From Sulfitobacter sp. 20_GPM-1509m (GTDB taxonomy: Bacteria; Pseudomonadota; Alphaproteobacteria; Rhodobacterales; Rhodobacteraceae): a DNA stretch of 64,000 bases. Position 1 is the first letter of the stretch; each line of letters starts with the position of its first letter. The notes beneath the pieces were generated by a model. The model did not search any database and was not told the DNA's origin. It worked only from the letters and a program-made list of their open reading frames with translations. Made by a program: the position numbers and the translations under genes. Where the stretch lies: the NCBI RefSeq assembly GCF_000620505.1, contig NZ_JIBC01000005.1, forward strand, positions 186,001 to 250,000, read 5' to 3'. This document shows, piece by piece, positions 4,729-34,513 of this stretch.

Positions 4729-5853
4729 CTTGATCTGCGTCGCCGCCTGCGTATAGCCGCCCGCCGCCCCGTCGATGAAATGCACGTGATCGTCGCGCAT
4801 CATCGAGGGCACGATGCAGGTCATCAATGCCTCGCTCTGGCTGTGCATCCCATAGCGGATCGTACCCGCCTTGCGCGCCTCTTCCATGATTTCCGTCAGC
4901 CGCGCTGCGGTGGCGTCGTCACAGTCCAGCGTCATCTTCAACCCGTCGTCGAACTTGCGAAAGTCCGCATTCTCCCCGACGGAGCGGGCATAGCTGCGCG
5001 CATCGAAGCCACCGATTTTCAGGCCGGTCCTGATCAGCAGCCAGGCCAGGAAGCTCTCGAACAGGATCTGCCGCTTGCGCTTGGCCACGGTCATTTTGCC
5101 ATGGGTGGCGCGGGCCTCCATCTCGGCGCCTGCGGGTGGCCAGCCTGCACCGGGTCCGTCGACGGGTGCGGGGTGACCGTTGCGCTCCAGATCGCCGACC
5201 ACCTTCAACACATCCCGGATCAAGTCTGCGACGGCTGTGTCATCGGCACCCTCTTCCGGCTGGATCAAGACTGACAGAATCTGCCCGTTGCGCGCCTTCA
5301 TCTGGCTCCAACGACAGGACAGGCCGGTCAGGTCAGGCTGGGTGCCTGCAGGTGCATGGGGCAGGTCGAACTGGCCGCGCTTCATCTCGGCCTCGGCCCA
5401 GCTGATGCCGCCGCCGGTGAACATGGCGTAATCCACACCCTTTGCGGCCTGATACCGTGCCACGGCCACGTCGCGGCCCGCGCTGCGGATCGCGGCCACC
5501 GGCACCATGGCCACGCGCAGGGTCAGGCCGAATTCCTCGGCGGCCCAGACACGCACCTCGGACAAGGCCCGCGCCGCGGCATCGGCATGTTCGCCCGGAC
5601 AGGCAAAGGCCGCCCCGTCGCCGCCAAAGATGAAAGGAAACGCACGCCCTTCAGCCGCGTTGATCTGCGCCGAGATCACGGCAGCGCCGATCATGTTGAC
5701 TGTCTTGTAACGCCCTTCGGCAATCGCCTGTGTCGACCCCACGATATCCGACGCCCCCACGACCCAGTCATCGGGCAACGGAGTATAAAGCGCCTGATCA
5801 GACAGCTTGGCAAAGGCATCCTGCAAGGGCAGCTGATTATAGAAGTCGTTCAT
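4714..5853 (-). CDS. DUF3095 adenylate-cyclase-like protein
   Basis: A 379-residue protein starting MNDFYNQLPL. Residues 25-190 resemble a class III nucleotide cyclase fold: an ASDIVGSTQAI strand-helix (first metal Asp), then PFIFGGDGA, the equivalent of the second metal site. The C-terminal half (MTVAKRKRQILFESFLAWLL..., then LTLDCDDATA...) is typical of DUF3095 proteins, which have been described as adenylate-cyclase-like; cyclase activity is not proven for the family as far as I know. The start is set by similarity (DFY...L...F); an in-frame open region upstream overlaps the divergent MFS gene and is rejected. If active it would make cAMP or a related signal, perhaps relevant to the cyclic-nucleotide-binding-type domain at 31415-34513, but nothing links them directly. 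Confidence 0.75.
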   Translation of the reverse strand: MNDFYNQLPLQDAFAKLSDQALYTPLPDDWVVGASDIVGSTQAIAEGRYKTVNMIGAAVISAQINAAEGRAFPFIFGGDGAAFACPGEHADAAARALSEVRVWAAEEFGLTLRVAMVPVAAIRSAGRDVAVARYQAAKGVDYAMFTGGGISWAEAEMKRGQFDLPHAPAGTQPDLTGLSCRWSQMKARNGQILSVLIQPEEGADDTAVADLIRDVLKVVGDLERNGHPAPVDGPGAGWPPAGAEMEARATHGKMTVAKRKRQILFESFLAWLLIRTGLKIGGFDARSYARSVGENADFRKFDDGLKMTLDCDDATAARLTEIMEEARKAGTIRYGMHSQSEALMTCIVPSMMRDDHVHFIDGAAGGYTQAATQIKGGSV

Positions 5854-30512: not shown

Positions 30513-31418
30513 TCAACGGCGCAAGGCAAGGCGCACGGCCAGCCAACTGGTCAGCATGATGGCAAAGTCGACCGGCAGCCATTGCGCCACCGCCGTGGCG
30601 TCCGACATCCCAAAGGGCAGCACGTACAAGGCAAGGCCGGACAGGTTGTCAGGCATGGCGGTGAACAGCATGGCAATCGCGTTGTTGACGAAATGCACGG
30701 CAATGGCGGGGCCAAGCGTGCCGGTGCGTGCGGTAAGGTCAGCCATCAATATGCCGAATATGCCCGCCCAAAGAACAAACCAGATTGCGTTGTCGCCCGA
30801 TGTTTCGGGGGAATAATGGCCAAGCGCGAACAGCGCCGACGGCACCACCATCCACACCAGCGGCGACGCGAACCGCGCCGCCAGTTGCTGTTGAAGGTAG
30901 CCGCGAAACAGCACTTCTTCGGCGCTGACCTGCACCAGAATCGCCAGCAGCGACAGCGGCAGCAGCGTGACCCATTGGCCAAGGGGCAATTGCGGCTGCA
31001 TCGGCGGCTCCATGCCCCAGGGTGGCAGCACCCACAACGCCACGTTCAGCAGCACCACCGCCACAACAGCCAGCCGCACCTGCACCGCAAAATCGCCCAT
31101 CGGCCCAAGCAAGGTCAGCGGCGACCGGTGATGCAAAACGACGACCACGCAGCCCACGACCACCAACATCAGGCCAAAGCTGAACAACAGCGCAAACATC
31201 CCGGCGGGCGTGCTGCCCGCTTGCAGGTCTTCGGCAAAACTCAACGCCGTTTCAGGCGGCAGAATCGACAGCAGCAGGGTGACATAAAGCTGGCTCAGCA
31301 CCACATAGCCGACGCCGCCCAACAGCAGGCCGACAACCAGCCGCCACAGCGCAGGTTGCGCGCGCGCAGGCGCGACAAAGTCCTGATGCGCGGCATAAGC
31401 GGCGGGCGGACGGATCAT
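30513..31418 (-). CDS. CPBP family intramembrane glutamic protease
   Basis: A 301-residue multi-pass membrane protein of the CPBP (CAAX and bacteriocin-processing) family. Motif 1 EEVLFR is at 167-172, motif 2 FALGH at 197-201, and motif 3 HFVNN at 242-246, so the catalytic set looks intact. These proteases sit in the inner membrane and process or modulate membrane-bound substrates; specific targets are mostly unknown. Its ATG overlaps the stop of the unusual ABC-like gene upstream (31415-34513) by four bases, so the two are co-translated and likely act together. Confidence 0.85.
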   Translation of the reverse strand: MIRPPAAYAAHQDFVAPARAQPALWRLVVGLLLGGVGYVVLSQLYVTLLLSILPPETALSFAEDLQAGSTPAGMFALLFSFGLMLVVVGCVVVVLHHRSPLTLLGPMGDFAVQVRLAVVAVVLLNVALWVLPPWGMEPPMQPQLPLGQWVTLLPLSLLAILVQVSAEEVLFRGYLQQQLAARFASPLVWMVVPSALFALGHYSPETSGDNAIWFVLWAGIFGILMADLTARTGTLGPAIAVHFVNNAIAMLFTAMPDNLSGLALYVLPFGMSDATAVAQWLPVDFAIMLTSWLAVRLALRR

Positions 31419-34400
31419 TCTTCATCCTCAAGCGACGGGGCGACAGGACCGGAGGGCGTCGGCATATTCACCCGCGCATCCCGCAAAACCTCTGCCGCGC
31501 CGGTCAAATGCGTGCCCACGGTCTGCAGCAGATGCAACAGTAACTTTGGATCGTTTTCGTACACCGCGCGGAATTCCTCAGCCCCCAGCCGCAGGAATTT
31601 GCAGTCGGTCGTCGCAGTCAGATCCAACTGGCGCGGTTCGTTCATGATAATCGACAAATCACCAATCACCCGCCCCGGATTTACGGTGGTGATCGGATGG
31701 CTCCCACCCTCGTCGTCCTGGTAGCTCATGACAGCCTGCCCGGTGACGCACAAATAGGCCGCATCGGCAGGATCGCCTGCAGAGAACACCCTTTGACCCG
31801 CAGCCACAGGATACCACTGCGCGGCAAAGGCCAGCAGACGCTGGTTGCGACCGTCCATTTTACCGAACAGTTCGGTGCGCCCGATCATGCGAAGCTTGCG
31901 CCGCAGGTCATCGGCGCCTTCACCGTCTTCGTCTTCAGCATCGTGGCTTAGAATACCGTCAATGCGACCGTTCTTGATCTCGACGAACAGGTCATAAGCA
32001 TCCGGATTTTCAAAGGATTCTTCCATGAAGATCAGTGTTGAATCTGGCAAGAGATCGCGCAGACCGGCACGCGCGGCGCTGCGCTGCACGCTGTTGTGGC
32101 TGGCCAGCGCCCGGTCCAGCACCAGAATGTCCGGCCGCTTGATCGCCGCGCGGCTGAAGGCTGCCCGCTCCTGGAACATGGTTGGAATCTTGACCCCGGC
32201 CAACCCTGTGGGAATGTCAAAGATCGTTTCGGCGACCAGCTGCTGCAAATCCTGCTCAAGCAGCAGATCCATGACCAGACTTTCAATCTCCTTGGCCCGC
32301 GCGCCTGCCATCCCCGAGATCCGCCCGTAGAGGGCATTTTCCAGAATCGTCATGCGCGGCAGGTAGTTTTCCGGTGCGATGGGGATGAACATATCCTCCA
32401 TCAGGCCAAGCAGGGTCGCCCCGTGCTCGTGGCGGATCTTCAGTATCTCGCCTTTGAAACTCTCCGGAAAGGCCGGGCCGAACTGTTCCGCGGTCAGCGC
32501 GAAGGGCACCGTCAGGAACAGCGCGAATTCCTCGTCGCTCAGCGCCGCGTCCCCTTTTTCACGGCGCCGCTCGGCAATATCGGCCAGCCGCTCGTACATC
32601 TCTTCCTCGATGCCCAGCGCCATGAACAACGGGTGGTTGGTGCCGTCGCGACCAAAGGTCTGCAACAGCGTTTCCATCAGGGTTTGCGAGATGGCGATAC
32701 CCTGCTCGGCCAAACCCTGTTCCGAAACAAGCCGCAGGAACCGGCCTTCGTCCACCAGCGCCTGTTGGCTGATGCTGTACCGCGGCGCGCCAAACAAGAG
32801 GTTGCCGCCCAGGGGCACCGACGGGTTGAACGTATCGGGGGAAAACCGGTGGACCGCATCGTTCAGGCCGGACGCATTCAACCGTCGCTCAACCTCGGGG
32901 CGCAGCGCCACGATGGCCGTGGCCAGATCGGGGTGCAAGGCGGCATCAATGCTGGTCCCCAGCATCCGCCGCACCATCTGGTCTTCGATCCCGATCGCAT
33001 TGATCAATCTGAACCACCACGCCCGAATGTCTTCCGCGTCGTTCAGACCTGCCAGACCCGGATCAACCCAGTCAGCTATCAGACTGTCGGTGCTGTTGCC
33101 TGCGCGCTGGGACTCAATGGCCTTCTTGTCCTTGTGACCGGGGTCCCAAAGGACAGTGCGCGGGCTGGTCATCAACGGCATCAACAGGTTGCTGCCCAAG
33201 CTGCCGTCGAACAGATAGGGTCGAGAATGGGCATAGCCGATCCGCGCGGCGATCACCGCCTGATGCAGGTCCGCCAGATCATGGTCCGACACGATCACAT
33301 GCCCGCGCGAAGGCGTCACTTCACGGGTCAACAATTCGGCCAGCGCCGTGCGTTCGGTCTGGTTGGCGACCTGTATGGCGACACGCGCCTTTGCCGGAAT
33401 TGTCAGCTTGATATTTTCCAGAATCGAATTGCCGTCCGCATCGCGCACCGACACGTTGTCCAACACGATATTGCCGTCCAGATGCGGGATGGTCCTGGGG
33501 CTGCCTTCGAACTTGTCGGCATCGATCATACCCTTGGGATTGAAACGCTCGGTCACCACATCCCAGCGCACCGACATGTCCTGCACCTGGTTGTAATAGG
33601 TCAGCAGTTCTTTCCACGGGCTGGACAGGTCTTTGTAAGCGGCCAGCGCCGCGACCAGCGCACCGACCGAGATCTGCCCGTTGATCGCCAGATATCCGCC
33701 GACAGAATAGAAAAAGAATGGTGTAAGCTGGGTGATGAAGTTGTTGAGGAACTTCATGAAGAATTTCTTCTGGTAGATCTTGTAGCGCAGCTCGAACAGC
33801 ACCCCCAGACGTTCGGTGAACTGCGCCAGCCGGTAACGCCAGCCGCCGTTGGTCCGCAGGTCGGTCACGCCGGCCGCACTTTCCCCGATCTCGGCGGACA
33901 ATGCGCGCACCTGCACGATCCGCGCCTTGTTCAGCACGTTGATCTGCCGTTGCAACATGGGGATCAACCACGCCTGCAACGGGATCAGCGCGACCCCAGC
34001 CAGCCCGAACCAGATGCTCTGGGCAAACAGGAACACCACGATGATGGCCATCTGCCCTGCCTGAAAGATAGGTTGCGCCAGGGCGTCCCCCATCAACCCG
34101 CCCATCGGCTCGGCTTCGGAGGTGACCATGCTGACCAATTCGCCCTGCGAAGTGGTGCGGAAGTAACTGCGTGGAAACCGCATCATCCGCGCGATCAGCG
34201 TATAACGCAGCCGGCGCAGCATCCGCTCGGACACGATGCCCTTCATCGTGTTCAGGCGCATTTTCAGCAAGCCATGCGCCAGAACCGCCGCCAGGTAGAT
34301 GCCGCAGAGCAGCATCAGGAACTGCACCTGTCCCATGGTCACGCCCCACGCGGTGACCGTGTCGGAATCCGCACCGATGGCATCGTTGATGATCCGCTTG

Positions 34401-34513
34401 GGCAGTTCCAGCGTGGCGTAAAGAAAGGGGAAGGTGACCAACGTGACCAAAAGCAACAGCACCTGATCGCGTTTTGAATATTTCCAGATAAAACTGAACA
34501 GTGTGCGTTCCAT
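31415..34513 (-). CDS. ABC-exporter-like protein with dead ATPase and cNMP-binding-type domain
   Basis: A 1032-residue protein. Residues 1-310 form an ABC type-1 membrane domain with about six helices. Residues 345-860 correspond to an ATPase domain, but Walker A is replaced by IQVANQTERTA (380-390), LSGGQ by IPTMF (776-780), the catalytic Glu after Walker B (LVLDR, 797-801) by Arg, the Q-loop Gln by Ser (YAHSRPYLF), and the H-loop His by Glu (IFMEES). About 320 extra residues lie between the Q-loop and signature regions. Residues 880-1000 have the form of a cyclic-nucleotide-binding domain (GRVIGDLSIIMNEPRQLDLTA). It therefore probably does not hydrolyse ATP and may be a regulatory or scaffold protein. 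Strong bases for the domains; function unknown. Confidence 0.85.
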   Translation of the reverse strand: MERTLFSFIWKYSKRDQVLLLLVTLVTFPFLYATLELPKRIINDAIGADSDTVTAWGVTMGQVQFLMLLCGIYLAAVLAHGLLKMRLNTMKGIVSERMLRRLRYTLIARMMRFPRSYFRTTSQGELVSMVTSEAEPMGGLMGDALAQPIFQAGQMAIIVVFLFAQSIWFGLAGVALIPLQAWLIPMLQRQINVLNKARIVQVRALSAEIGESAAGVTDLRTNGGWRYRLAQFTERLGVLFELRYKIYQKKFFMKFLNNFITQLTPFFFYSVGGYLAINGQISVGALVAALAAYKDLSSPWKELLTYYNQVQDMSVRWDVVTERFNPKGMIDADKFEGSPRTIPHLDGNIVLDNVSVRDADGNSILENIKLTIPAKARVAIQVANQTERTALAELLTREVTPSRGHVIVSDHDLADLHQAVIAARIGYAHSRPYLFDGSLGSNLLMPLMTSPRTVLWDPGHKDKKAIESQRAGNSTDSLIADWVDPGLAGLNDAEDIRAWWFRLINAIGIEDQMVRRMLGTSIDAALHPDLATAIVALRPEVERRLNASGLNDAVHRFSPDTFNPSVPLGGNLLFGAPRYSISQQALVDEGRFLRLVSEQGLAEQGIAISQTLMETLLQTFGRDGTNHPLFMALGIEEEMYERLADIAERRREKGDAALSDEEFALFLTVPFALTAEQFGPAFPESFKGEILKIRHEHGATLLGLMEDMFIPIAPENYLPRMTILENALYGRISGMAGARAKEIESLVMDLLLEQDLQQLVAETIFDIPTGLAGVKIPTMFQERAAFSRAAIKRPDILVLDRALASHNSVQRSAARAGLRDLLPDSTLIFMEESFENPDAYDLFVEIKNGRIDGILSHDAEDEDGEGADDLRRKLRMIGRTELFGKMDGRNQRLLAFAAQWYPVAAGQRVFSAGDPADAAYLCVTGQAVMSYQDDEGGSHPITTVNPGRVIGDLSIIMNEPRQLDLTATTDCKFLRLGAEEFRAVYENDPKLLLHLLQTVGTHLTGAAEVLRDARVNMPTPSGPVAPSLEDEE

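Follow-up and report, generated by a model that had tools for sequence, protein, structure and literature searches.

A 64-kb stretch of the Sulfitobacter sp. 20_GPM-1509m genome (contig NZ_JIBC01000005.1, positions 186,001 to 250,000; the window, analysed at its full length) carries on its minus strand a gene for a 1032-residue protein that, by sequence, is a type IV ATP-binding cassette (ABC) half-transporter with a C-terminal cyclic-nucleotide-binding domain (CNBD). The nucleotide-binding domain (NBD) of this window protein has lost its catalytic residues, and the loss is shared by every close homologue. The reading that we favour, at a probability of roughly 0.4, is of an ATP-independent ABC-fold membrane protein, whether transporter, flippase or channel, that would be gated by a ligand of the CNBD with the dead NBD acting as relay.

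Domain organization

The Pfam profile of the exporter membrane domain, ABC_membrane (PF00664), matches residues 40-290 with E 2.7e-20 (73.6 bits against a cut-off of 28), and cNMP_binding (PF00027) matches residues 903-988 with E 1.2e-15 (57.7 bits against a cut-off of 27.5); the latter bears out the added CNBD of the original prediction, which had been made from the letters of the window alone. ABC_tran (PF00005) stays below threshold at 18.9 bits against a 25-bit cut-off, over residues 365-457 in the first half of the NBD. The closest named relative, in Pseudosulfitobacter pseudonitzschiae DSM 26824 (locus L086), is 98% identical. The features of the open reading frame (ORF) are as follows, with coordinates in window numbering and residue numbers of the 1032-residue protein.

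31415..34513, minus strand: whole ORF, ABC half-transporter with dead NBD and C-terminal CNBD, 1032 residues from ATG (translation, Pfam, model, Foldseek)
33539..34513, minus strand: transmembrane domain (TMD), residues 1-325 (Pfam, conservation)
33134..33481, minus strand: first half of the NBD, residues 345-460, P-loop strand and helix retained in the model (Pfam, model)
33347..33370, minus strand: Walker A position, residues 382-389, V-A-N-Q-T-E-R-T (family alignment)
33224..33226, minus strand: Q-loop glutamine position, S430 (family alignment)
33173..33244, minus strand: repeat unit 1, the weakest, residues 424-447, invariant N442 (HHalign, conservation)
32234..33133, minus strand: mostly helical insert between Q-loop and signature, residues 461-760, ends approximate (model)
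32669..32926, minus strand: repeat unit 2, residues 530-615, invariant N571 (HHalign, conservation)
32189..32476, minus strand: repeat unit 3, residues 680-775, invariant N726, extending into the second NBD half (HHalign, conservation)
31928..32233, minus strand: second half of the NBD, residues 761-862 (model)
32174..32188, minus strand: signature position, residues 776-780, I-P-T-M-F (family alignment)
32111..32128, minus strand: Walker B, residues 796-801, I-L-V-L-D-R, aspartate retained and arginine at the catalytic glutamate (family alignment)
32018..32020, minus strand: H-loop histidine position, E832 (family alignment)
31478..31921, minus strand: CNBD, residues 865-1012, pocket rewritten yet conserved, with G951-D952 and R961 invariant in 67 sequences (Pfam, conservation)

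A catalytically dead NBD kept by selection

In the family alignment the Walker A lysine is replaced by arginine (R388) and two P-loop glycines by valine and glutamate; S430 stands at the Q-loop glutamine, I-P-T-M-F (776-780) at LSGGQ, R801 at the catalytic glutamate and E832 at the H-loop histidine. The proposal that every catalytic motif had been replaced thus holds for the Walker A lysine, the Q-loop, the signature, the catalytic glutamate and the H-loop histidine, with the qualification that the Walker B aspartate persists as D800. Among 88 distinct close homologues, the window protein included, that aspartate is retained in 56, and the Walker A lysine, Q-loop glutamine, catalytic glutamate and H-loop histidine are each present in none, as expected if the loss runs through the close family. 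The replacements recur: arginine stands for the lysine in 73 of the 88 and glutamate for the sixth-position P-loop glycine in 74; the signature serine survives in five and the D-loop aspartate in 68. As a control, the motifs are present in the sequences of six canonical exporters from the window genome; the profile alignment shows only one NBD half for each (the Walker A/Q-loop half in four, the signature/Walker B/H-loop half in two).

Purifying selection acts on every part of the protein. Ratios of nonsynonymous to synonymous substitution (dN/dS; Nei-Gojobori, 10 pairs) lie between 0.026 and 0.450 for the TMD, both NBD halves, the insert and the CNBD, so the dead NBD is being kept by selection. 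This upholds the earlier argument that an intact frame without motifs does not reflect random decay. The predicted NBD fold is intact despite the lost residues: an AlphaFold2 model built from 67 sequences (mean predicted local distance difference test (pLDDT) 81.4, predicted template-modelling score (pTM) 0.68, weak at residues 854-864) preserves the order of strands and helices. Its best Foldseek match in the PDB is P-glycoprotein (E 1.5e-16, with a low template-modelling (TM) score owing to the difference in length), and half-transporters such as TmrAB chain B reach TM scores of 0.60-0.61 by target length.

A fused CNBD with a rewritten pocket

The CNBD has a separate counterpart elsewhere in the family. 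At 52 of 54 assessable loci, relatives in which it is not fused carry a CNBD gene on the same strand, no more than 1400 bases downstream (L102 and L133 are the exceptions); the rate may be lower in truth, since these loci are a best-scoring sample. Because the separate gene lies directly downstream in these relatives, the window protein is, on sequence evidence, a Rosetta-stone fusion of the ABC-like protein and the CNBD. A second lineage has fused independently: L161 has a C-terminal CNBD with a canonical cassette (L168 is cut off by the locus end).

What might the fused domain bind? The separate CNBDs keep the phosphate-binding cassette (Glu in 44 of 46, Arg in 45, Ser/Thr in 43, Ala in 44) and match the cyclic-nucleotide-gated channel SthK with E values of 2.0e-15 to 5.4e-13; for them cyclic-nucleotide binding is plausible. 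In all 88 proteins of the window clade the glutamate is replaced by aspartate and the arginine is kept; the position after the arginine is Ser/Thr in seven of the 88, and glutamine (56 of 88) and leucine (54 of 88) stand at the places that follow. Such a conserved but altered pocket suggests a different ligand, or none. The response to cAMP or cGMP that had been suggested for the window protein is accordingly doubtful, because the pocket has been rewritten in a conserved manner.

The insert and its repeats

About 300 extra residues, mostly helical in the model, split the NBD between the Q-loop and the signature. Residues 530-615 and 680-775 repeat each other with HHalign probabilities of 98.7 and 99.1, which makes these two units copies of one another on firm sequence grounds. 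Both also match the Q-loop stretch, which ends in the same Asn-containing turn, at a weaker 61-84% over several HHalign runs; among the top nine matches listed for the query, the next unrelated window stands at 12%. The asparagine of each unit (442, 571 and 726) is invariant in 67 of 67 sequences. A triplication of the segment after the Q-loop is likely rather than proven, because the matches of unit 1 are weak, with HHalign probabilities no higher than 83% on 23 and 60 columns.

A membrane domain with its own constraint

The TMD is the most conserved part of the protein, with a mean column identity of 0.832 and 132 of 325 columns invariant in 67 sequences, against 0.65-0.69 for the cytosolic parts. 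Conservation extends to relatives that have a TMD and nothing else: at 48 TMD positions, conservation reaches 93% or more across 83 NBD-bearing members and stays at 70% or above in seven TMD-only relatives. Many of these positions are charged or polar (K39, N43, K84, N88, E96, R100, Q165, Q180, R198, R203, R243, K250, K254, E302, D312), and by an approximate alignment the conserved positions mostly differ in four canonical exporters of the window genome. The TMD-only relatives thereby favour, from sequence, a membrane function of the TMD itself. Four of them (L079:11610-12821, L106:5165-6661, L107:5059-6387 and L108:484-1716) adjoin copper-handling genes, namely cupredoxin, CusF, multicopper oxidase, heavy-metal P-type ATPase or OEP (not every gene was scanned at each locus). 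Separately, two diverged NBD-free forms, L109:4938-6005 and L110:4649-6100, adjoin a truncated-globin-type gene (PF01152, checked for L109).

These data bear on a role in signalling without transport, in which the dead ABC body would be a membrane platform that regulates a translationally coupled CPBP protease, or another partner, when the CNBD binds its ligand. The gene in question is

30513..31418, minus strand: CPBP (Rce1-like) intramembrane protease gene, overlapping the stop of the ABC-like ORF by ATGA (Pfam, ORF calls)

and its product passes the PF02517 profile with 67.1 bits against a cut-off of 22.4. The overlap, the dead NBD and a CPBP gene in the next position at 67 of 87 close-homologue loci all speak for such a platform. 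It is nevertheless rather unlikely: conservation is highest in the TMD rather than in the cytosolic part (0.832 versus 0.65-0.69), the charged and polar set is kept in TMD-only relatives, and the CPBP gene is missing at 20 of the 87 close loci (some being contig ends), with none seen at distant-relative loci. The signalling or scaffold role of the original prediction is not supported as stated, and its CPBP partner holds for most of the close clade only; the family-wide pairing is with the CNBD gene (52 of 54).

Paralogue B and the prospect of a working partner

The window genome encodes a second protein of this kind, B (G000:C4:230296-233292), 52% identical to the window protein (A) and likewise without motifs. 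Could A be the regulatory half of a heterodimer of the TM287/288 or TAP kind, in which B and/or a canonical half-transporter is the partner that turns over ATP? A B-type copy accompanies A in 25 of 25 A genomes of a 198-genome sample (assigned by identity bands; one A is a fragment and one B is 40% identical), but in a second genome set it does so in 10 of 15. B is also dead, so an A+B pair would have no working ATP site. Nor would a canonical partner help. ATP sites in ABC proteins are composite: with the signature and both Walker motifs gone, even a canonical partner completes neither site, and since the signature is lost such a partner cannot complete its own. No canonical exporter is conserved beside these genes at the loci examined. 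A regulatory half with an ATP-hydrolysing partner is therefore quite unlikely.

Graded loss across the wider family

With a threshold of E 1e-50, profile A1 matches 132 of the 385 sampled genomes of the window's class, a few of the matches being TMD-only or partial; in a sample of the phylum it matches 32 of 398 genomes, 31 of them belonging to the same class. Close relatives also occur in Moritella, Granulosicoccus and one Chromatiales metagenome-assembled genome; in two Moritella genomes there are in addition shortened, internally deleted second copies of 467 and 613 residues, apparently decaying (L247:3334-4737 and L248:3209-5050).

Unfused members (55 distinct, one of them, L169, cut by a contig or locus end) are in a different state from the close clade. 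They keep the P-loop lysine in 27, the signature serine in 27, the catalytic glutamate in 23, the Walker B aspartate in 14, the histidine in 11 and the glutamine in 8. The Mg-binding Ser/Thr after the P-loop lysine is kept in five and is Asp or Glu in 45. Motif loss throughout the wider family is thus contradicted, as distant relatives keep parts at the same place. Homologues with intact Walker motifs, which the original prediction had named as telling against it, are nearly found among these relatives, three of which have five of the six catalytic residues, yet none of the 55 has all six.

A tree of 90 TMD rows places the dead fused proteins on one side of a branch with a Shimodaira-Hasegawa-like approximate likelihood ratio test (SH-aLRT) support of 99 and groups the TMD-only forms on another branch (SH-aLRT 98). 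The state of the P-loop lysine requires at least six changes on this tree, so its loss has recurred. Five members with a diverged TMD (L171-L173, L176, L177) are also motif-poor, and none of the five has a CNBD gene nearby. The group L171-L177 has the same kind of NBD insert and a much diverged membrane domain.

A further reading is a switch that binds ATP without hydrolysing it, with nucleotide held by other residues gating the TMD and the CNBD tuning the response. The P-loop lysine (27 of 55) and Walker B aspartate (14 of 55) of unfused members, D800 of the window protein and the D-loop aspartate in 68 of 88 are compatible with it. In the close clade, however, the glycine P-loop is gone (sixth glycine to glutamate in 74 of 88), and Asp or Glu takes the place of the Mg-binding residue even in 45 of 55 unfused members; such a switch is improbable. 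An ordinary pseudogene or annotation artefact, although family copies can decay as the second Moritella copies do, is rejected on selection (dN/dS) and on conservation over 88 distinct homologues in one state, with a shared insert and invariant residues.

A possible mechanism

In the ATP-independent, ligand-gated protein that we favour, two A subunits, or A and B, would form the dimer. The dead NBD would serve as a mechanical lever that relays ligand binding in the CNBD to the coupling helices and so opens or re-orients the membrane domain. The domain might then move its substrate down a gradient or by ion coupling, by analogy with SbmA and protons. For the window protein a ligand other than plain cAMP or cGMP is probable; in the unfused ancestors, binding of a cyclic nucleotide is probable. 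Glycosyltransferase-type genes, which lie in the neighbourhood of 11 of the 26 wide distant loci and of which four representatives were checked in Pfam, hint at a lipid- or glycan-linked substrate; the copper neighbours of the TMD-only forms point elsewhere.

Several observations weigh against this mechanism. The TMD-only forms may have diverged in function, given their copper clusters. No transmembrane acidic ladder for ion coupling was identified, though no dedicated glutamate-ladder test was run. About half of the unfused members keep the P-loop lysine and three keep five of six residues; for much of the family, ATP binding may therefore be important. The TMD model is weak in places (pTM 0.68, with low pLDDT at residues 158-175 and 288-297), and there is no glycosyltransferase at the window-genome locus.

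Comparison with known systems

Type IV ABC exporters (MsbA, TmrAB, P-glycoprotein), which are matched by Foldseek and phmmer, share the PF00664 TMD, the NBD fold and order and the coupling arrangement, and differ from the window protein by its lost catalytic residues, NBD insert of about 300 residues and C-terminal CNBD. SbmA runs an ABC-type TMD on protons, and the authors of its description trace it to an ABC ancestor whose NBD was lost (PMC13316013). The SbmA/BacA-like peptide transporters (SLiPT) are there an ABC-exporter TMD without ATP (PMC13316013), and TMD-only relatives exist in the window family too; the window protein, however, has an NBD fold attached, and its conserved TMD residues are specific to its family. 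Membership of SLiPT is rejected, as PF05992 has no match in the whole window genome, with control matches in E. coli.

HetC of Nostoc PCC 7120 also has a CNBD on an ABC exporter; this domain binds ppGpp, a non-cyclic ligand, and is needed in vivo (PMC10986499). There the CNBD is N-terminal, with a C39 peptidase and an essential catalytic glutamate, whereas the window CNBD is C-terminal and its NBD dead; no peptidase domain of Pfam matches the window protein up to E 1. Catalytic residues are lost in an NBD of TM287/288, TmrAB and ABCB11 as well, but one site remains consensus in these, whereas both are lost in an A/B pair. Cyclic-nucleotide-gated channels such as SthK have a C-terminal CNBD that gates a membrane domain; that of the window protein is of the ABC-exporter type and not a cation channel, and its pocket is rewritten. 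The combination of a dead NBD, a repeat-bearing insert and a partner or fused CNBD was not found in searches of the open-licence papers of PubMed Central.

Genomic neighbours and a candidate cyclase

Beyond the CPBP gene lie ORFs that we take to resemble accD and folC, and upstream is a divergent, presumably ilvD-like, gene. Thirteen distinct unfused loci have a metallo-beta-lactamase-fold (MBL) gene nearby, as at L100:8419-9276 and other loci, where an MBL-fold hydrolase lies downstream of the CNBD gene; the copy at L101 matches class II cAMP phosphodiesterases below threshold (E 0.083). The window itself contains

4729..5844, minus strand: DUF3095 gene (PF11294, E 1e-140), the sole copy in the genome, about 27 kb from the ABC-like ORF (Pfam)

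and relatives of it are found immediately upstream at L100 and L111 and, at L185, about 2 kb past the MBL gene. The ABC-like family is present in 20 of 26 DUF3095 genomes (132 of 385 overall; Fisher one-sided p 5e-6, not corrected for kinship). DUF3095 has weak cyclase-like motifs, and a profile-profile comparison with class III cyclases scores 29.3, where 60 column shuffles reach 25.5 at most, but at a probability of only 11.5%. A sequence search of the PDB gave no relative (best E 1.3, an unrelated dehydratase), and a single-sequence model was useless (pLDDT 33.6). A class III nucleotide cyclase is a lead only. A Pycsar/CBASS defence system is rejected, the PADLOC matches being weak and confined to CNBD stretches.

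Implications

The family may, as a tentative and somewhat speculative proposal, record the staged conversion of an ATP pump into a ligand-gated membrane protein: a partly intact NBD with a separate sensor, then a dead NBD with a fused sensor adapted to a different ligand, alongside a sister branch without an NBD. It would be a previously unnamed family, an ABC counterpart of the cyclic-nucleotide-gated channel and a second independent ATP-free route beside SbmA, possibly served by DUF3095 as nucleotide cyclase. If the ligand-gated reading is true, ABC exporters can be uncoupled from ATP and yet keep a dead NBD, under selection, to relay a signal; the window family would preserve intermediate stages mostly lacking in the SbmA lineage as described in the available part of that source (PMC13316013). 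It would also connect CNBD signalling, in a concrete and testable way, with an ABC membrane domain in a large part of one bacterial class.

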